A stretch of DNA of 37,297 nucleotides from the IMG/VR virus record IMGVR_UViG_3300043172_000583, positions 1-37,297 of that record; one strand, written 5' to 3'. The stretch is from a virus. The notes below the pieces were generated by a model. The model saw nothing but the letters and a program-made list of their open reading frames with translations. It ran no database searches and was not told the origin of the DNA. Both the position numbers and the translations under genes were made by a program. Position 1 is the first letter of the stretch. Each line of letters starts with the position of its first letter. This document shows, piece after piece, positions 59 through 37,297 of the stretch.

Positions 59-127
59 GGTTTATTTATGGTGTCCGGGTTTGCTTTCTAATTCACCACC
101 GCCTGAAAAAAGATATTGTGAAGTAGA
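1..127. repeat. terminal direct repeat, left copy (circular-contig overlap)
   Basis: These 127 bases are identical to 37171-37297. A length of exactly 127 equals a common assembler k-mer size, so this is most likely the overlap of a circular or circularly permuted assembly and not a biological terminal repeat. It makes the unique genome about 37,170 bp and joins the tailspike gene to the gene at 36851-37228. Confidence 0.95.
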
Positions 128-1807
128 GAAATTAGTGTGCGAAACGCTGATTGTATTCGCGTTTTGCACTGCGAAAGAATTATTGATTGATGCAGCAGAA
201 CCCGTTGACATTCCGATGAATCCTTGCCTGTAATCAGTCACGTTTTTAAATAGTATTCCTGTCATTGCTACAGTATCACCAGTGTGTGCTCCTCCAGCGA
301 CTTTGTAGGCTATCTTAAGATCAGACAACCACCATGATCCTTTACCAGCCCAATCGTTGGCTTGTTTAATAATATAAGTAGCCCTTGCCAGGACTGTAAT
401 ACCTAGCGCTGACGAGACAATAAAATCTTCAGTTGCACCGGTAGCACCTATATAAGTTTTTTCTTTCTGAATATGCTCATAAGTTGAATCAATAAAATTC
501 CCGCCTGAATCGACTTCAACTTTCCCGACTTCAGATGTTGAATCTCCCAGGCCCGTTACATCTTTCTGCATTTTAATGAAGAAACCTTCATTATCTACAT
601 CAAAGATATCATCAGCTAATTCTATAGGATCACCGTCAATTGTTGGGGTGACTGAAATAGTTGTTTTTGTTTTTTGGGTTGTATTATAAACAATCGCGCC
701 TTCTTTAAATAAATGACTTGCTGCGTTACCAGCGGCCCAAACCAAAAATCCAGCACTTGCAATGTCTGAAGTTCCTTCGAGATATATTGCCAGTTTTTTA
801 TTTCCATCGGAATCAGTACGGCAACCATACAAATGGGAATTTTCAAGAGCTTGACCGTTCACAGTATCGGTGGCTGAATTCCATTCTATATCAGGATTTG
901 GAATGTAAGTCGGGATATTATTACTGTTTACTGTTTCGAATGAATCGGCGGTGTATCCTATGTGGGTTGTATCTATGACGTCGAAAATTGGGTTTTTTTC
1001 TGTGAAATCAGTTACTCTTTGCGGTCCTGATAAGATTGTACATTCTATTGAAGTGAGAGAAACTACCACCCCTTTTATTAGAGTAACGCCCAAAGAAAAT
1101 ATGTCACTGCTACCTATAAAATCGAAATCAGTTCCAAATGCAAGTGTCCATCCTGCCGTTGCATCCTGGGTTATTTGCCAATAGTAAGTCATACCTACTA
1201 TTTTATTTGATGGGTTGTCTAAAGTGCTATCTTGATCGATTTCAAGAGTGTGAACAGTGGCTTTTGATAGATCGGTTGTCACATTTGCGGCGGGGGTAAG
1301 TGCGATAGTTCCAATATTTGAAACAACACCTCTTTCAATATCCCAATCTGCATCAATAGCCGTAGCCCCGGCCTTATTAGCTGTTATAAAATCACCTGTT
1401 TGTAAGATATGACCACCACTTGCAGAATTAAGTGTAAACCCTGTGGATACTTTGTATTTATCCCCGGCTGAACCTAAAGCGGGATAATCCCCGGCATTCG
1501 TGCTGCTGTCAAAATCACCTTTTAAATTAACTCCTGAACCGGTTGATTGTAAGCCGTCCTTTTCCCAAACTTGTACATCGTTCTTATCATCCAAAACAGC
1601 TTTGTATAATCCAGAAATATAAATCACAGGAAAACGCCCGAATTCATCTGCAAGAACAGGGTGCGCCTGTGGTATTGTTTCTGCTGAATCTGAATAACTG
1701 GCTTTGGGCGTTGTGGTTCCTGTCTCAAAAAAGTAATACTTAGCACCGTCGAACGGTTTGACATTTTGCCCATATGCGCTTGCTATTGGGCTTACGAAAA
1801 TTGACAT
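62..1807 (-). CDS. tailspike / tail fibre protein with head-binding N-terminus
   Basis: Predicted receptor-binding protein of 581 aa. Residues about 1-90 (MSIFVSPIASAYGQ..., with a GAKYYFFETGTTTPKA stretch and DEFGRFPVIYISG) have the pattern of the P22-tailspike-type head-binding domain shared by many podovirus spikes and fibres. A middle part around 100-160 (DYPALGSAGDKYKV, GDFITANKAG) and a following segment with YYWQITQDATAGW resemble small modules common in phage fibres. I see no recognisable glycan-hydrolase motif in the C-terminal half, so depolymerase activity is not supported. The stop lies next to the tail-assembly-like gene across the circle join, and the start overlaps the upstream ejection gene by one base (TAATG). 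The receptor is unknown. Confidence 0.8.
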   Translation of the reverse strand: MSIFVSPIASAYGQNVKPFDGAKYYFFETGTTTPKASYSDSAETIPQAHPVLADEFGRFPVIYISGLYKAVLDDKNDVQVWEKDGLQSTGSGVNLKGDFDSSTNAGDYPALGSAGDKYKVSTGFTLNSASGGHILQTGDFITANKAGATAIDADWDIERGVVSNIGTIALTPAANVTTDLSKATVHTLEIDQDSTLDNPSNKIVGMTYYWQITQDATAGWTLAFGTDFDFIGSSDIFSLGVTLIKGVVVSLTSIECTILSGPQRVTDFTEKNPIFDVIDTTHIGYTADSFETVNSNNIPTYIPNPDIEWNSATDTVNGQALENSHLYGCRTDSDGNKKLAIYLEGTSDIASAGFLVWAAGNAASHLFKEGAIVYNTTQKTKTTISVTPTIDGDPIELADDIFDVDNEGFFIKMQKDVTGLGDSTSEVGKVEVDSGGNFIDSTYEHIQKEKTYIGATGATEDFIVSSALGITVLARATYIIKQANDWAGKGSWWLSDLKIAYKVAGGAHTGDTVAMTGILFKNVTDYRQGFIGMSTGSAASINNSFAVQNANTISVSHTNFSTSQYLFSGGGELESKPGHHK

Positions 1808-15377: not shown

Positions 15378-15545
15378 TTATGGTACTAGTGTTGTTAAAA
15401 TTCTCTGTTTTATTGGATTAACTGAGGAGAAATAAGCTTTTCCTTTATATTTTTTAACAGCGCACTTCTCACAACGGTGTTTTTTATCCCCATTATCAAA
15501 TGGGGGATTTGCAATTTTACCACAATCACAGCATGTTGCACTCAT
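15378..15545 (-). CDS. 55-aa zinc-ribbon protein between terminase and portal
   Basis: An unlisted small gene read directly from the sequence: ATG at 15545 overlapping the large-terminase stop as ATGA, stop TAA at 15380-15378. The product begins MSATCCDCGKIANPPFDN and continues KKHRCEKCAVKKYKGK, giving a C-x2-C ... C-x2-C zinc-ribbon knuckle pair with about 16 residues between. The C-terminus is short and basic. The tight coupling between terL and portal suggests a packaging-associated or regulatory role, which is inference. Confidence 0.75.
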   Translation of the reverse strand: MSATCCDCGKIANPPFDNGDKKHRCEKCAVKKYKGKAYFSSVNPIKQRILTTLVP

Positions 15546-16966
15546 CTTACAAACTCCGAAGCAAAAACCAAAGGCTTTCTGGTTATTGTTGGTGGTGGGT
15601 TAGCAAAGCACATACATAAAGCATCAGCCATATTTGGGCTTTTAATACCTTCTTTTACAGCATCCTTTTTAGACTGAATCTGAATGAAGCTATTGTTTTT
15701 TTTATCTTTCTTGACCTTTATCAGCTCACTCTTAAGAATGTCAATATCTTCTAAATCTGGATCAATTGCAATAAGGTCTTCGGGATTAGTATAAATCCCC
15801 TTCTCTATTGCATTGTAAGTTGCCTCGAATCTATCGGCAAGTAGAATGTAATATTGTGACCGTTTGTTTCTAAATGTATCTTTGTTTGATTTTTTCTGAT
15901 CATCAGGAATCAGTTTTGTTTTTGGGTAAAGTTCATGTGGATTATCAACCGATTCAGCACCCATAAAAGGGATTACCTTGATTGATTTATTGATTGTCAC
16001 ATTGGCCAGGTAAACTTTCATAGCTGCGCCCATTCCGGTAGCATCATAGACCATAAATTCATCTTTATCTTTTTCAGCATTTTTAAAAGCGTTGTCGATC
16101 GCTTCCGGTAATTCCCCCCACTCCCATCGCTCACCGTTTGAGATATAAGAGCCGTGTCTATGCATCGTACACTTTGCGTCTCCAGTATCAGCAAGATCAA
16201 ACCCTTGAGATCTGACACCAGCCACTTTAAACCCTAGTTTCTTATGAGCATTTACTGCAGCATCAAACCATTCAGGCTTAATGATAGCATCTTGATAATC
16301 TGCATAACATTCGCCGCCGTACATCCATAGCCATTTTTTATAGTTTTCTTTCTTTAAATCTCTTGAGTGTTCTTCTAATCCGGGATTTGGGAAGGGGTTT
16401 TCTTCTAGGCTTGTTTTACAGACATAAAGCGTTTCATCTTCGTAAAATCCTTGCTTATTAATGATATCAATATGTGGTTTTACATATCGAGAATAGATAA
16501 TATCTGATTCATCTTGGGGATTAAATGAGATCCATATTTCGCCGGGGTTGTTCCGGATGATTGTGGGAATTAAATCATCCAGGCTTGTTTCCTTTGTGCT
16601 TTCTCCTTCCTCAATCCAGGCGATATTAAAATCATCATATGACTTAATTCCTTTAGTACCTCTACTCATTCCGTCAAATGCGAACAATGATTTATTTTGG
16701 ATACCTGATAGAGATTTATCAAGCACTCTAATTTTGTCTCTTGCGTTGAAAATATCTATCTCTTTAACGAGTGCCGAATGAACAGAGTTTGCTATCGATT
16801 TCATGTATTCGCGTAGGCAGAGTATTTTTAAGTTCTCTGCCATTGCCCGGAAAATTAACGCTTTGCAAATGCATGTTGTCTTGTAACCACCACGCCCACC
16901 AAAGAGTATTTTTATCTGCTTTGGTTTGAATAAGAATTCCAGCTTGTCGGGTATTTGTATGTTCAT
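15542..16966 (-). CDS. terL: terminase large subunit
   Basis: A 474-aa ATPase-nuclease that pumps DNA into the procapsid; pattern of the Terminase_3 (PBSX-like) group. Walker A is FGGRGGYKTT at residues 22-31; Walker B with catalytic acid is FNIAWIEEGE at about 113-122; a coupling-type motif WISFNPQ follows. The C-terminal RNase-H-like nuclease shows FDLADTGDA, VYDATGMGAA and the late SPNMADALCM acidic residues. Starts as ATGA overlap with the preceding 87-aa gene. P22-like headful packaging is suggested by the module but not proven by the sequence. Confidence 0.92.
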   Translation of the reverse strand: MNIQIPDKLEFLFKPKQIKILFGGRGGYKTTCICKALIFRAMAENLKILCLREYMKSIANSVHSALVKEIDIFNARDKIRVLDKSLSGIQNKSLFAFDGMSRGTKGIKSYDDFNIAWIEEGESTKETSLDDLIPTIIRNNPGEIWISFNPQDESDIIYSRYVKPHIDIINKQGFYEDETLYVCKTSLEENPFPNPGLEEHSRDLKKENYKKWLWMYGGECYADYQDAIIKPEWFDAAVNAHKKLGFKVAGVRSQGFDLADTGDAKCTMHRHGSYISNGERWEWGELPEAIDNAFKNAEKDKDEFMVYDATGMGAAMKVYLANVTINKSIKVIPFMGAESVDNPHELYPKTKLIPDDQKKSNKDTFRNKRSQYYILLADRFEATYNAIEKGIYTNPEDLIAIDPDLEDIDILKSELIKVKKDKKNNSFIQIQSKKDAVKEGIKSPNMADALCMCFANPPPTITRKPLVFASEFVR

Positions 16967-19711: not shown

Positions 19712-19902
19712 CTCTCAACTCGAATAATTTTCTCTACAGGCATACAAGTAAAATTAAATCCTTCATCTTGGTGCCTACTTGGTTCTAAATGAGTTGCGCC
19801 CATGCATTCCAAGGGCTTGCAATCTCTATCTTGATTGATGCATTTTTGCACTTCTTTGTTTATCACTATCAATCCGTCTATTGTTAATTTTGGTTTGTTC
19901 AT
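19708..19902 (-). CDS. small Cys-containing hypothetical protein
   Basis: A 64-aa protein using the ATG at 19902, which forms a TAATG overlap with the upstream gene; an ATG at 19914 four codons earlier has no ribosome-binding site. MNKPKLTIDGLIVINKEVQK is followed by CINQDRDCKPLECMGATHLE and FTCMPVEKI, four cysteines that could bind metal or form a small knot. Function unknown. Confidence 0.5.
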   Translation of the reverse strand: MNKPKLTIDGLIVINKEVQKCINQDRDCKPLECMGATHLEPSRHQDEGFNFTCMPVEKIIRVER

Positions 19903-20387
19903 TACGTATCCCATTGTTTGGCGTTTTTTAGGGCTTCATTAAATATGTTTTTTCTGTATCCATCAGCACCATTTCTTATATATGCTTCAGCTGCTTCTTT
20001 TAGTTCTTTATATTTTAATTGCCCGTTGTGTTCTGCATATTTCACTAATTCAATAGCCTGTTTTAGTGAAAAGCCATGTTCAGAGAAGTTTGTTATTTGT
20101 GTTTTCTGGTATTGCTTTACAACTTCTATGGCACTTAAAACCTTCGGCTCTGCTGGTATGATTTGCCATTTTTTTAGTAAAGTTTCTTTAAATTCAGTTC
20201 TCCATCCATCTTCAATATCTTTTTTTCTTATAAATTCGATAGCTTCCCAATTAATATTCCTGATTTTATCTTCATACTTTGATTTGTCATATGCCTCTTG
20301 CAGTGTCATTAATTCCGGTTCTACTTTTTTAAATGTAATTTGGATATCCTTGCTCCCACATCTTAAGCATTTTGTTTCTGTTATCAT
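19902..20387 (-). CDS. hypothetical protein with N-terminal Cys pair
   Basis: A 161-aa protein starting MITETKCLRCGSKDIQITFK; the single CxxC knuckle suggests a half zinc ribbon. The rest is helical and charged (FKETLLKKWQIIPAEPK, QAIELVKYAEHNGQLKYKEL) with a C-terminal NGADGYRKNIFNEALKNAKQ. The leader resembles the recurring early-gene leader (AATCCAATAAAGG). No family recognised. Confidence 0.5.
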   Translation of the reverse strand: MITETKCLRCGSKDIQITFKKVEPELMTLQEAYDKSKYEDKIRNINWEAIEFIRKKDIEDGWRTEFKETLLKKWQIIPAEPKVLSAIEVVKQYQKTQITNFSEHGFSLKQAIELVKYAEHNGQLKYKELKEAAEAYIRNGADGYRKNIFNEALKNAKQWDT

Positions 20388-22525: not shown

Positions 22526-22998
22526 CTTTTTATTAATCTCCTTTCAATTAATCCTTGATTTAACATCTCCGTTTCAAGCTCGTAAACTGAATGATATGTT
22601 ATAAATTTTCCACCTGCTAATAGAACTTCTTTTTTATAAGTCACTTGGTCAGGGTCTAAATTTTTACCTGGCATCTTAGCTTCAATTGCCACAAAAAGAC
22701 CACGAAAACAAATATGATGGTCTGACATGCCTGGGTTTCTAGTTGGAACTTTTCGACCATTCCCGACTCTGAGAGGCATGTTATCTGTTAATAATATTTT
22801 GCAATTGCTTAACAGTTTTAAAAAATCAACACCGGCCTTTTTCAGTTCAGTTTCATTCAGATACTTTTCATTTTTCGGATTTTCATCAAGATACTTATCC
22901 TGCCTCTTGATTCGTATACCTTTTTTAGTAAGGATTTCTTTGAATTTATCAGACTCCCCACCAGGTAGGAAGTCATAAATCGATTTACGATTATTCAT
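22522..22998 (-). CDS. VRR-NUC domain nuclease
   Basis: A 158-aa protein started at the ATG at 22998, preceded by GGAG, eight bases inside the end of the upstream gene. A 44-residue upstream extension to 23127 is possible in frame but overlaps that gene and has no ribosome-binding site. The C-terminal half carries the PD-(D/E)XK pattern of the VRR-NUC family: GMSDHHICFRGLFVAIEAK (Asp93, Glu106-Ala-Lys108), then DPDQVTYKKEVLLAGGKF (Gln118) and HSVYELE. Such phage nucleases are thought to process DNA intermediates, often near replication genes. The first third has no recognisable domain. Confidence 0.75.
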   Translation of the reverse strand: MNNRKSIYDFLPGGESDKFKEILTKKGIRIKRQDKYLDENPKNEKYLNETELKKAGVDFLKLLSNCKILLTDNMPLRVGNGRKVPTRNPGMSDHHICFRGLFVAIEAKMPGKNLDPDQVTYKKEVLLAGGKFITYHSVYELETEMLNQGLIERRLIKR

Positions 22999-23596
22999 CT
23001 TCTCCAAGTAGCGGGGGTTTTTCTTCTTCATCTGAAGGAACAAAAAACGCCTCATATTTAGAACTTTCTTGATAAAAATGAACTGTTTCACCACAAAAAG
23101 ATGTTTTAATCTGCTTTGACTTTTCAAACCCTGTCATGATGCTTGATATTTCACTTGGGTACAAAAACAAACCGTCAATCGGTTCCTTTTCTTGCTCAAA
23201 AAGCGGCTCAAGGTTTTCAAATCTACCTGATGGTTGCTCGTAGATGACATATTCTTTATTAGACCAGAGTTTTTTATCTGAAATATCAATATACAAATAT
23301 GATGGATCACCCTTGGCAAGTTTTTTACAAAGCGATTTATGTTCACCCATTAGCTTTTTAAAACATAATAAAGCGCTGTTTGTGATCATAAATTCTTGTG
23401 GGGGCAACTCTTTTGATCCGGTTAATTCTTCAATCTCGCTATGCTTTGTTAAAACCGCCTTTTTTGCAAGATTGGCGTTCCCTGCTGTGCAAATTACACT
23501 ATCGTTTTCAACTCTCACGGAAAGACCTCTATCATTTGAAATTACAGGGTCCATAAAAGTAATCATTGCTTCAAAATCTAATCTATCTATGTTCAT
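22991..23596 (-). CDS. hypothetical protein, possible sliding-clamp-like fold (weak)
   Basis: A 201-aa acidic protein (AAGG before ATG): MNIDRLDFEAMITFMDPVIS, LLCFKKLMGEHKSLCKKLAK, DGLFLYPSEISSIMTGFEK and a C-terminal KYEAFFVPSDEEEKP. The layout of short beta strands, a helix with 'YPSEISSIM', and a tail on 'aFFvPsd' only loosely recalls a single beta-clamp domain; I cannot support that call on sequence. It lies between replication and nuclease genes. No family recognised. Confidence 0.5.
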   Translation of the reverse strand: MNIDRLDFEAMITFMDPVISNDRGLSVRVENDSVICTAGNANLAKKAVLTKHSEIEELTGSKELPPQEFMITNSALLCFKKLMGEHKSLCKKLAKGDPSYLYIDISDKKLWSNKEYVIYEQPSGRFENLEPLFEQEKEPIDGLFLYPSEISSIMTGFEKSKQIKTSFCGETVHFYQESSKYEAFFVPSDEEEKPPLLGEDE

Positions 23597-34277: not shown

Positions 34278-34462
34278 TGAAAGAAAATAAAAGATATTTA
34301 TGGGGTATGGTACACATAGACCAGAATGGAAAGCCCCCGAAAACTAAAGTGGGGGATTATTTTGTGGAGTCGGATGAAGGGGAAATTAAGAAGTACAAAC
34401 CAAATCTGTTATTGGAAACCCTAAAAAATGGCTTGCCACTGAAGCAACTACCGCAACAATAG
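34277..34462 (+). CDS. last gene of the rightward operon, unknown
   Basis: A 61-aa protein from the ATG at 34277 with GGGGGA six bases upstream and TGATG coupling; an ATG at 34265 lies earlier in frame but inside the previous gene. MKENKRYLWGMVHIDQNGKP, then DYFVESDEGEIKKYKPN and NGLPLKQLPQQ. Its last 77 bases overlap the holin-like gene on the opposite strand. No family recognised. Confidence 0.45.
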   Translation: MKENKRYLWGMVHIDQNGKPPKTKVGDYFVESDEGEIKKYKPNLLLETLKNGLPLKQLPQQ

Positions 34463-34607
34463 CCGTCATGAATTTCTTGTCTTTATAAAAAGGGATAGCG
34501 TGTTTTTTTAATGTTGCTTTGACTATCTCTTCATTTTCTTCTTTGCTTTTACCCTGTGAACTCATGAGAAGCTCAACCCCGGCAATTATCAATGGAACTG
34601 GTATCAT
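34386..34607 (-). CDS. holin-like small membrane protein
   Basis: A 73-aa protein just downstream of the lysozyme gene. A weakly hydrophobic N-terminus (MIPVPLIIAGVELLMSS), a charged middle (KSKEENEEIVKATLKKHAIP) and one clear membrane helix at about residues 45-66 (FMTAIVAVVASVASHFLGFP). Size, charge layout and position in the lysis cassette fit a holin, but no holin family is recognised. The end overlaps the convergent plus-strand gene. Confidence 0.55.
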   Translation of the reverse strand: MIPVPLIIAGVELLMSSQGKSKEENEEIVKATLKKHAIPFYKDKKFMTAIVAVVASVASHFLGFPITDLVCTS

Positions 34608-34611
34608 AATA

Positions 34612-35043
34612 TTACCCTGTATGATTTGGAAAAAATGAATTAGATTGCATTGCCTCCACTAATTGCTCGGCTCTAATTCCGACTTGATGAAACCATTTTG
34701 AATCTTTCATCTGAACACCGGCCTCTAAATAGTCACCGTTTTCAAGTGCTCGAATCATCATTTTAAATCTAAGGAAAGATGAACGCCCAATATTAAAATG
34801 GAGATTTAAAAGAACTTCCTGGCGAACATCTGACAAATCCTCAAACCATGAAAACTTTCTTAACTGTTTTTCAGTGGCGTCGATGTCATTATTTAGCATG
34901 TAAATAGCTTCATCTTCTGATATCCCATTATCATCAATGTTACGGCCTACCCCTATCGTCAACTTGCCCTCAGAACATCTATAAGGCTTTAATCTTAATG
35001 CTTCATGCCTGATCAATGTATCTGTTAATCTTTTTCTATCCAT
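34612..35043 (-). CDS. GH24 (T4-type) lysozyme endolysin
   Basis: A 143-aa lysozyme, expected to hydrolyse the murein glycan at lysis. RHEALRLKPYRCSEGKLTIG carries Glu14, Cys23 and Thr29 in the E-x8-C-x5-T spacing of the T4 triad Glu11/Asp20/Thr26, so Asp is replaced by Cys. Cys at this position occurs in many phage GH24 enzymes ('YrC..GklTIGvGrN'). NIDDNGISEDEAIYMLNNDI and the VLLNLHFNIGRSSFLRFKMM region fit the rest of the fold. No signal sequence is seen, so release depends on a holin. GAGG precedes the ATG. Confidence 0.9.
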   Translation of the reverse strand: MDRKRLTDTLIRHEALRLKPYRCSEGKLTIGVGRNIDDNGISEDEAIYMLNNDIDATEKQLRKFSWFEDLSDVRQEVLLNLHFNIGRSSFLRFKMMIRALENGDYLEAGVQMKDSKWFHQVGIRAEQLVEAMQSNSFFPNHTG

Positions 35044-35454
35044 TTATTTACCTCGTTTTAATTGTTGATAAAGTGGAGGCCGATTTATATTATTAAGATC
35101 CCTTTGCATTGAATTAAGAATTTGAGTTTGAATTATTACGGCCTCTGTTATCTTCGTTAATATCCCGTTTGTTATTTTTCTATTTTCTTTTTCATCCTCT
35201 CTTAATTGTTTTAATGCCTCTTTGAATTCTCTGTGATCTCTGGATTTATCACCAAGTGAGATTGCCATGGACCGTAAAACTTCTATCTCTTCTTTTTGTA
35301 CAGCTTTTACCTCTCTTATTTCTCCCTTTACAGCTCCTATTTCGCCTCTGGCGTCTGACACATAAATTACAAGTAGGGCAAAGGTAGCCAGAAACCCTAT
35401 AAGCGCCAGAACGACACCTATATTTTTATTTATCACCGCTGCCATTTTATCCAT
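35044..35454 (-). CDS. inner-membrane spanin-like protein
   Basis: A 136-aa protein with one membrane helix at residues 12-32 (IGVVLALIGFLATFALLVIY) near the N-terminus and a long charged coiled coil after it (GEIREVKAVQKEEIEVLRSM, EALKQLREDEKENRKITNGI), ending KRGK. This N-in, periplasmic-coil topology is that of Rz-type inner spanins. No matching outer lipoprotein spanin is nested here. It abuts the lysozyme gene (stop adjacent to ATG). An alternative is an unrelated coiled-coil membrane protein. Confidence 0.5.
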   Translation of the reverse strand: MDKMAAVINKNIGVVLALIGFLATFALLVIYVSDARGEIGAVKGEIREVKAVQKEEIEVLRSMAISLGDKSRDHREFKEALKQLREDEKENRKITNGILTKITEAVIIQTQILNSMQRDLNNINRPPLYQQLKRGK

Positions 35455-35456
35455 TT

Positions 35457-36797
35457 TTAATTTATGGTGAAATATTTAATATCACGAGTGAAAAAATCAG
35501 TTGTGTTTTTTCCTATCCAGGTAATCATTTCGTCATCACTTGCTAAAACTTGACCGAAAGGAAGCGCCGAGCCTTCACTGTTTTTCGATAAAACAAAATC
35601 AGTATCTTTTCTAATTACCAAGTAATATTCAACCCCCGGAACTGGCATATTATCAGCGTCAAGCATTCCGTTATATCTCATTAAGGGTTTAATCATTATC
35701 TCTTTTAAAGCTGTTATATCCTGTCTTTTTGACAATGGCACCGGGTAAGCATCATTTGATTTTGTCCAAATCGATACTTGAGAATCAGGAGGGAAATTGA
35801 AAGCAATATAATTCGATGTTAATATCTCATCAGGGAAAACAATCGGAATTGCGAAAGTGTTGTATGTTGTCTGATCAAATGAACCATTTCTATTTAAATC
35901 CATATTATGCGATATTTGCACCACCGGATCCCGTTCTAAAATATCAGAATAATAAGAAGGATATCTTGGAACTAAATTTGAATAACTCAGATTCCATATT
36001 TTTGGAACATTGATTTCAAGCCCTAACTCTAAATAACGAGCTTTTAAATTATCTTTAATTCTGATCAGTGGTAATAGCTCATATATCCCAGCAATTTCAG
36101 CTTTTAGAGTTAAATCATTATTAATAACACCCTGAGAAATATTGCTAATACATGCCAATTGTTCTGCTGGTGTCTTTTCCCATAAAATCATTGAATTAGT
36201 TAGACATAAAACAGCATCATGAATGCCGGACGTTTCAAGGTTCATTTCAGTAAATTTTCTAATAAGCGTTTGCATATCAAGATAAGCTAAAATCAATCTT
36301 TCAGCTTCGTCTAAGCATTCGCCAACGGTTCCGAATCCTTGACTAAATAAATCCCTGGCAACTGGTGTTCTGATAGTTGTTAACGGGTTTATATTTTTTA
36401 TTGCATCGTCTACATTAACAATGGCGTCAAGTTCTTGGCTGTCTTCACTATATGTTAATTCATTATGGCAGGTACCCTCAAAAGTAACTTCAATATATTG
36501 GATATCTTCTGAAATTTCCCCCGGAACTTCAAACGCTCCGAAATCATCCGTTGTTTTTCCAAAAAAATGCTCCCCGTTTTGGTTGATGGTTCCTGGGTCA
36601 ATTGGGTACATTTCAACTTTCCCACCCTCAAAACATGGACCTTTCTGGCATAATCCAGTTATAAGCCTATTCCTGTTTTTGGGCTTTGTTCCATCACCTT
36701 CCCCGTCTTTGCCGTCTTCACCTGGGTCACCTTTACATGCAAAAAATAATAAAAATGGTGCATGTGCTATAATTTTAAGAATAATTCTTCTTTTCAT
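35457..36797 (-). CDS. phage-borne collagen-like lipoprotein
   Basis: A 446-aa predicted surface or periplasmic lipoprotein. The signal is KRRIILKIIAHAPFLLFFAC with Cys21 as the lipid-modified residue (lipobox LFFAC, unusual in Phe at -3 and -2). It is followed by four Gly-X-Y triplets (GDPGEDGKDGEG), then TGLCQKGPCFEGGKVEMYPI and GKTTDDFGAFEVPGEI, a pattern I recall from lipoproteins annotated in bacterial genomes. A second half is rich in beta strands (FNFPPDSQVSIWTKS, VEYYLVIRKDTDFVLSKN). It lies between tail and lysis genes with a candidate promoter of its own (36826-36854), a moron-like arrangement. Possible roles: superinfection exclusion, host surface change, or a virion or lysis accessory. 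Confidence 0.7.
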   Translation of the reverse strand: MKRRIILKIIAHAPFLLFFACKGDPGEDGKDGEGDGTKPKNRNRLITGLCQKGPCFEGGKVEMYPIDPGTINQNGEHFFGKTTDDFGAFEVPGEISEDIQYIEVTFEGTCHNELTYSEDSQELDAIVNVDDAIKNINPLTTIRTPVARDLFSQGFGTVGECLDEAERLILAYLDMQTLIRKFTEMNLETSGIHDAVLCLTNSMILWEKTPAEQLACISNISQGVINNDLTLKAEIAGIYELLPLIRIKDNLKARYLELGLEINVPKIWNLSYSNLVPRYPSYYSDILERDPVVQISHNMDLNRNGSFDQTTYNTFAIPIVFPDEILTSNYIAFNFPPDSQVSIWTKSNDAYPVPLSKRQDITALKEIMIKPLMRYNGMLDADNMPVPGVEYYLVIRKDTDFVLSKNSEGSALPFGQVLASDDEMITWIGKNTTDFFTRDIKYFTIN

Positions 36798-36825
36798 AAT
36801 AGATCTCGATTGAAGGTTAGATTAA

Positions 36826-36854
36826 TATATAACACAAATAACCCTTGAAATCAA
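36826..36854 (-). promoter_or_regulatory. candidate promoter of the lipoprotein gene
   Basis: Minus strand TTGATT (36854-36849; 4/6), 17-base spacer, TATATA (36831-36826; 4/6), placing a start about 22 bases before the ATG at 36797. Its -35 overlaps the stop codon of the upstream gene. An independent promoter is typical of phage morons. Confidence 0.45.
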
Positions 36855-37228
36855 GAAAATGGTTTTTTTTGTACTGCTTCTATTTCAGAACTGTTTTTTA
36901 TTCGTTTCCAATTCAATCGCTCAGCTACTATTTTCTGCTTATCTGTTTCTGAAAACTCAAAATCAGGTAAAAATACATAGTCAGTATCTTTTAGATTTTG
37001 AATACACAAAGCTTTTTGAGAAGCTAAAGCGTTTTTTGAATCATCAATTACTTTTTGCTCTTTTTCGGCTTCTGTAAATTGTGGTTCAATGGGATTATCA
37101 GGCCCGGTTTTTCTCATCATTTCAGCGTAGAATCCTGATTTTTTATCGAAAGATTGGCCTAATGTTCCATCGTCATTTTTTATGCAATAGTAACCTTTGC
37201 CTTGATCTTTATATTTTATAATTTTCAT
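36851..37228 (-). CDS. tail-fibre-assembly / tail chaperone-like protein
   Basis: A 125-aa protein immediately downstream of the tailspike gene on the circular map. Residues about 85-115 (KALCIQNLKDTDYVFLPDFE, SETDKQKIVAERLNWKRI) match the 'L..tDw..lPD......k.....yR..lr.I' pattern of the Phage_tail_APC/tail-fibre-assembly group. The N-terminus (MKIIKYKDQGKGYYCIKNDD) is a small beta region. Position and pattern favour a chaperone that helps tailspike folding; it could be a structural accessory instead. Its start lies within the end duplication. Confidence 0.6.
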   Translation of the reverse strand: MKIIKYKDQGKGYYCIKNDDGTLGQSFDKKSGFYAEMMRKTGPDNPIEPQFTEAEKEQKVIDDSKNALASQKALCIQNLKDTDYVFLPDFEFSETDKQKIVAERLNWKRIKNSSEIEAVQKKPFS

Positions 37229-37297
37229 GGTTTATTTATGGTGTCCGGGTTTGCTTTCTAATTCACCACCGCCTGAAAAAAGATATTGTGAAGTAGA
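37171..37297. repeat. terminal direct repeat, right copy
   Basis: Identical to 1-127. It includes the start of the tail-assembly-like gene (to 37228) and the last 22 codons of the tailspike gene (37232-37297). See 1-127. Confidence 0.95.
37232..37297 (-). CDS. 3' end of the tailspike gene (duplicate copy)
   Basis: The last codons of the tailspike (...GGGELESKPGHHK stop) repeated from 62-127 by the contig overlap. It shows that the tailspike and the gene at 36851-37228 are adjacent, separated by three bases, in the circular genome. Confidence 0.9.
   Translation of the reverse strand, partial: STSQYLFSGGGELESKPGHHK

Follow-up and report, generated by a model that had tools for sequence, protein, structure and literature searches.

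A gene for a 446-aa lipoprotein was found in an uncultured P22-like phage, where it directly follows the genes of the receptor-binding protein and a tail chaperone, and this gene order is present in podo-, sipho- and myo-type loci. The protein combines a lipoprotein signal with a bacterial-type domain, and such a gene is absent from the P22-like relatives checked. The explanation that we consider best, with about an even chance of being right, is that the product would sit in the outer membrane as a lipoprotein linked to the receptor-binding protein, would block re-adsorption and would thereby protect the infected cell against phages of the same kind. The location in the outer membrane, the masking of the receptor and the idea that an own promoter and a leader hairpin set the timing are what we infer. 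A phage lipoprotein beside a receptor-binding protein is an already known kind of arrangement. New, as far as the collections searched show, is the 446-aa form, which is built on a bacterial surface-lipoprotein domain and occurs alongside a fibre tip in distinct phages.

The stretch of DNA analysed here, called the window, is the IMG/VR virus record IMGVR_UViG_3300043172_000583 with 37,297 bases. The portal (5e-141) and the coat protein (2e-48) both have matches in P22 families. The closest relatives of the portal are found in marine Vibrio/Thalassomonas phages (35%), those of the terminase large subunit (15542-16966) in the APSE phages of Hamiltonella (43%). The window has an exact direct terminal repeat of 127 bases (1-127 is identical to 37171-37297), giving a circular map of 37,170 bp; this is what a complete genome with circular permutation or terminal redundancy would show. 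Since the repeat closes the genome, the tailspike, which ends at position 62, adjoins the chaperone, which begins at 37228 (circle position 58).

On the minus strand of the circle the order is tailspike, chaperone, lipoprotein, TM protein, lysozyme and TM protein. The tailspike or receptor-binding protein (62..1807, minus strand, 581 aa) has an N-terminus that matches P22-like tailspikes and tail fibres, and its residues 259-581 (65..1033, minus strand) form the fibre tip. It is followed by a tail-fibre assembly chaperone-like protein of 125 aa (36851..37228, minus strand) and by the lipoprotein gene with an ATG start (35457..36797, minus strand). Downstream are a protein of 136 aa for which hydropathy shows a single TM segment at the N-terminus (35044..35454, minus strand), the endolysin (Phage_lysozyme, 2.5e-13; 34612..35043, minus strand) and a 73-aa protein with one TM segment (34386..34607, minus strand), a possible holin whose holin PHROG match is only 0.044. 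A previous sequence-only reading had placed the lipoprotein gene between tail-assembly-like and lysis genes, which agrees with this layout.

Out of the 83 ATG ORFs of at least 60 aa in the window, only the 446-aa ORF passes the lipoprotein-signal pattern. Its signal peptide MKRRIILKIIAHAPFLLFFA-C21 ends in the lipobox FFA-C21 (36735..36797, minus strand). FFAC is atypical as a lipobox, but the corresponding site in the 45% identical relative on the locus L002 reads LSSC. The signal is followed by a Gly-X-Y linker, GDPGEDGKDGEG, at residues 23-34 (36696..36731, minus strand) with four triplets in register, a run which was reached in 0.5% of residue shuffles; the L002 relative likewise has a run of Gly-X-Y triplets after its Cys. 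Residues 46-265 (36003..36662, minus strand) hold a bacterial surface-lipoprotein domain, predicted as a beta-sandwich plus helices. The C-terminal region, residues 266-446 (35460..36002, minus strand), has 42% identity to its L002 counterpart, and no relative of it (from about residue 264/266 to 446) was found outside the L002 phage. That the ORF is coding is supported by its full-length collinear homologue in L002. Both the full lipoprotein gene with Cys21 as lipobox cysteine and the collagen-like triplets had been proposed from the bare sequence, and both are borne out.

The position next to the lysis genes brings up a spanin-like role, in which the lipoprotein would be an outer-membrane lysis accessory acting with the adjacent TM protein at 35044-35454. 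O-spanins are lipoproteins, and this neighbour combines its single N-terminal TM segment with a weak spanin PHROG match (0.048). However, the lipoprotein is 446 aa long, contains a folded bacterial domain and, by hydropathy, lacks the C-terminal TM segment of u-spanins, and the next gene in L002 encodes a DUF5675 protein and not a homologue of the TM neighbour. We therefore regard a role in lysis as quite improbable. As a candidate o- or u-spanin the protein was rejected, being neither short nor equipped with a C-terminal TM segment.

The sole full-length relative of the lipoprotein found in viral contigs is the L002 protein, encoded on a contig of 42 kb (G001) and alignable from the signal peptide to the C-terminus. 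The L002 phage is of siphovirus type, with another set of head and tail genes and a large ORF of tape-measure type. The C-terminal 318 residues of its fibre match the window tailspike (30%, 8e-24), and its chaperone, which is homologous to that of the window (31%, 3e-12), has a weak Phage_tail_APC match and a match to the tail fibre assembly PHROG. The lipoprotein is the most conserved of the three genes between the two phages, with 45% identity against 30-31%. Outside these three genes two or three small genes match and no more. Two genes common to the window and the L002 contig, outside the tail cassette, are 22991-23596 (37%, 4e-38) and 19902-20387 (27%, 2e-4) of the window.

A scan with the fibre tip detected a third locus, L025, a myovirus-like fragment with baseplate wedge genes. 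It has a fibre with the same tip (1e-21), a chaperone (35% identical to that of the window, 3e-21) and, after a gap of 104 bases, the first part of a lipoprotein gene with the lipobox FLNC. The contig ends inside this gene, so that only the first 74 residues are available and the protein is comparable in its signal only. A repeat of the scan returned the same two loci, L002 and L025. All three fibre tips found thus have a gene with a lipoprotein signal at the same place. In 198 Bacteroidota-side genomes the fibre tip gave two marginal partial matches and nothing more.

No lipoprotein signal is present behind the tailspike of four P22-like relatives that match in the tailspike head, and none was found anywhere in the phage BA3. 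The sequence-only reading had called the gene the one least expected in a P22-like map, and this is in line with the relatives examined. Its further proposal, a moron position, stands in part: the gene is absent behind the tailspike of these four phages and from BA3, but the promoter that was to go with it is at chance level in the window and strong in L002 (see below).

Searches with the lipoprotein against Pfam, PHROG, NCBIfam and PDB sequences gave no match, and neither did tblastn against the INPHARED phages and PLSDB plasmids. These results bear on a virion or fibre-associated role, in which the product would be made with the tail proteins and would enter or assist the fibre. The gene is a neighbour of the fibre and chaperone genes, and Gly-X-Y stretches, which are common in phage fibres, fit such a role as well. 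Against it, all three loci have the lipoprotein signal, the relatives are bacterial lipoproteins, and none of the PHROG families, phage families in general or virion families in particular, is matched. A virion protein is therefore improbable in our view. The profile search that had been suggested as a check found bacterial lipoproteins and no phage family, so its refuting outcome, matches to phage virion proteins only, did not occur.

The bacterial relatives were found with residues 45-175, which match chromosomal lipoproteins in two Fibrobacter MAGs and in one MAG labelled Chlorobiota (6e-10 to 5e-7). The seed alignment of that contig scan included a composite of Fibrobacter lipoproteins entered by hand, and the matches were confirmed with the window sequence alone; an earlier scan of genome contigs with the lipoprotein sequence alone had found no relative. 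Pairwise BLASTP against the lipoprotein L008 covers residues 46-265 (2e-13). We built an HMM from 12 bacterial sequences only, all chromosomal Fibrobacterota/Bacteroidota lipoproteins and none of them entered by hand, and searched it against the ORFs and 1000 shuffles. This HMM finds the window protein at 1.2e-19 (about residues 48-260) and the L002 protein at 5.3e-9, with a best shuffle of 1.2. Sequence comparison thus supports the assignment of residues 45-265 to a bacterial lipoprotein type, a segment which the sequence-only reading had recognised correctly.

The domain is abundant in Fibrobacterota, where it occurs in 34 of 81 genomes with up to 36 copies per genome, and rare on the Bacteroidota side with clear matches in 2 of 198 genomes. 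None of the Pfam models covers this QKGP lipoprotein domain. In two examined Fibrobacterota cases (L006 and L007) it is joined to Fib_succ_major. P22-type portal genes were observed in four of 41 sampled Fibrobacterota genomes (G204, G215, G223 and G238). Like the 'QKGPF...G' lipoproteins of Fibrobacterota/Bacteroidota (for example L006 and L008), the phage protein has a lipoprotein signal and then the domain, homologous over residues 46-265. It differs from them in its identity of only ~25%, in its C-terminus and in the lack of the Fib_succ_major of L006/L007. An hhalign comparison of the phage C-terminus with the Bacteroidota-side C-termini gave no match (E 0.49). This mismatch does not define the domain, because the C-termini differ among the bacterial members too.

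As the homologous domain is present in bacterial chromosomes, the gene might be a mere passenger, captured from a bacterium and of no benefit to the phage. We disfavour this as highly improbable: the full-length frame has been kept at 45% identity and at the same place in a further phage whose tail is of a different type, and the bacterial relatives are only about 25% identical, which points to an old capture with the gene kept since.

AlphaFold2, run with six sequences, is confident for roughly residues 43-262, which are predicted to fold into a beta-sandwich and then six helices, while the model of the C-terminal part, about half of the whole, is unreliable. Foldseek with the lipoprotein model found no significant match in the PDB. 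After realignment of the Foldseek list, the non-heme domain of Geobacter PgcA (PDB: 9i0d and 9i0e) came out at Z 11.1 and 9.3, followed by the next entry at 4.4. The alignment comprises model residues 44-294, with 166 residues aligned, an rmsd of 3.9 and 16% identity, and comparison by sequence profile did not link the lipoprotein to PgcA. Without Foldseek significance or a profile link, the likeness to PgcA is a fold resemblance and not evidence of function. Both proteins share the predicted fold and an N-terminal lipid anchor that precedes it (PMC11520253), whereas the phage lipoprotein is without haem domains. The best viral fold match in BFVD is A0A076FGU7, a 955-aa protein of Aureococcus anophagefferens virus (E 1.3e-4, probability 1.0), and this giant-virus protein may hold the same domain.

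The occurrence of the domain in abundant, surface-type bacterial lipoproteins and its resemblance to a part of PgcA, a protein which is transported through the outer membrane (PMC11520253), would also suit a lysogenic or infection-time conversion. The phage would then alter another surface trait of its host, such as adhesion, substrate or mineral binding or predator evasion, by mimicry of a host surface lipoprotein and not via the phage receptor. Conversion leaves the constant place behind the same fibre tip and chaperone unexplained, and the window gave no established sign of lysogeny. We consider it unlikely, if the most serious of the competing explanations.

The gap before the lipoprotein gene has 53 bases in the window, 67 in L002 and 104 in L025. 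The candidate promoter that the sequence-only reading had assigned to the gene in the window does not hold up: the weak promoter-like TTGATT-17-TATATA (36826..36854, minus strand) scores 8/12, and 90% of shuffles do as well. The L002 gap contains a strong, near-consensus promoter, TTGACA-18-TATATT (11/12), with 0 of 1000 shuffles as good, and the promoter in the L025 gap is fair (10/12, P 0.058). In L002 (4943-4984) and L025 (4485-4556), the promoter before the lipoprotein gene is overlapped by perfect inverted repeats of 13 bases. The gap palindromes of the window and L002 each occur once in their own genome, which speaks against a multi-site operator and is compatible with a single operator. 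No terminator was found behind the lipoprotein gene of the window.

In a read-through RNA of the window, a leader hairpin is predicted over the likely ribosome site, GAG (36804..36856, minus strand; -12.2 kcal/mol), and may have a role in translation. A hairpin covering the ribosome site is predicted in all three gaps, with z of -2.4 (window), -2.9 (L002) and -1.8 (L025), and in the window the SD is predicted to be unpaired only without the 5' arm of the hairpin. RNA begun at the local promoter is expected to start downstream of this 5' arm, and in such a short RNA the ribosome site would be more open. With predicted start sites, this opening in the short RNA is clear in the window and L025 and modest in L002. 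The lipoprotein leaders rank only 5/46 and 2/41 among the gene leaders of their genomes, in regions that were chosen after the fact. The leader of the T4 lysozyme gene e is alike in that an SD-covering hairpin has its 5' arm ahead of the start expected for a local promoter (PMC3014915). It is unlike in belonging to another gene, and here the promoter of the window is not above chance and the starts are predicted. A gate formed by the leader hairpin is thus a lead, not a finding.

Our main argument for receptor masking is that the coupling of a receptor-binding protein and a lipoprotein, as in T5 Llp, recurs in three tail architectures. The Llp gene of T5 adjoins the gene of the receptor-binding protein on its downstream side, and Llp blocks FhuA (PMC9586334). 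Rtp45 is a second receptor-blocking lipoprotein, which blocks LptD (PMC12685063). The window protein shares with Llp, Rtp45 and Cor that it is a phage-encoded lipoprotein, and with Llp the gene position. Unlike it, the known proteins are small (Rtp45 has about 6 kDa), and Llp and Rtp45 bind from the periplasmic side. The window lipoprotein has 446 aa and a bacterial-type domain, a chaperone gene lies in between, and no sequence similarity was found in PHROG or PDB. By size and sequence it is therefore not a member of the Llp/Cor/Rtp45 family, and the claim, at about even odds, is only that it works like them.

Under receptor masking, the infected (or lysogenic) cell would make the lipoprotein, lipidate it at Cys21 and anchor it in the outer membrane. 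The flexible Gly-X-Y linker would carry the bacterial-type beta-sandwich/helical domain and the phage-specific C-terminal domain, and the protein would bind or mask the receptor recognised by the adjacent tail fibre. Siblings would be kept from adsorbing to the infected cell, and progeny would not be caught on the debris of lysis. Since receptor and blocker would have to match, fibre tip, chaperone and lipoprotein would travel together between phages. The timing would be set by the own promoter and the leader hairpin.

Several points count against masking. A polysaccharide may be what the fibre tip recognises, and a lipoprotein could hardly mask that. There are three loci only, the third with 74 lipoprotein residues, and the known exclusion lipoproteins are small and periplasmic. 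The chance-level score of the promoter in the window also counts here. A more far-reaching version, which we hold to be rather unlikely, is that large exclusion lipoproteins on a bacterial domain form a three-gene cassette with fibre tip and chaperone across podo-, sipho- and myoviruses. They would mimic or compete with a host lipoprotein that is, or accompanies, the receptor, and the hairpin gate would let only the RNA from the own promoter be translated.

Receptor-blocking lipoproteins are characterised for a few coliphages. With the present protein, an unnamed domain of bacterial surface lipoproteins, tied to PgcA by predicted fold, gains a phage branch. If receptor masking is true, it would provide a simple genomic rule for exclusion factors, namely to look at which gene follows the fibre chaperone, and would give hints to the receptors that uncultured phages use.
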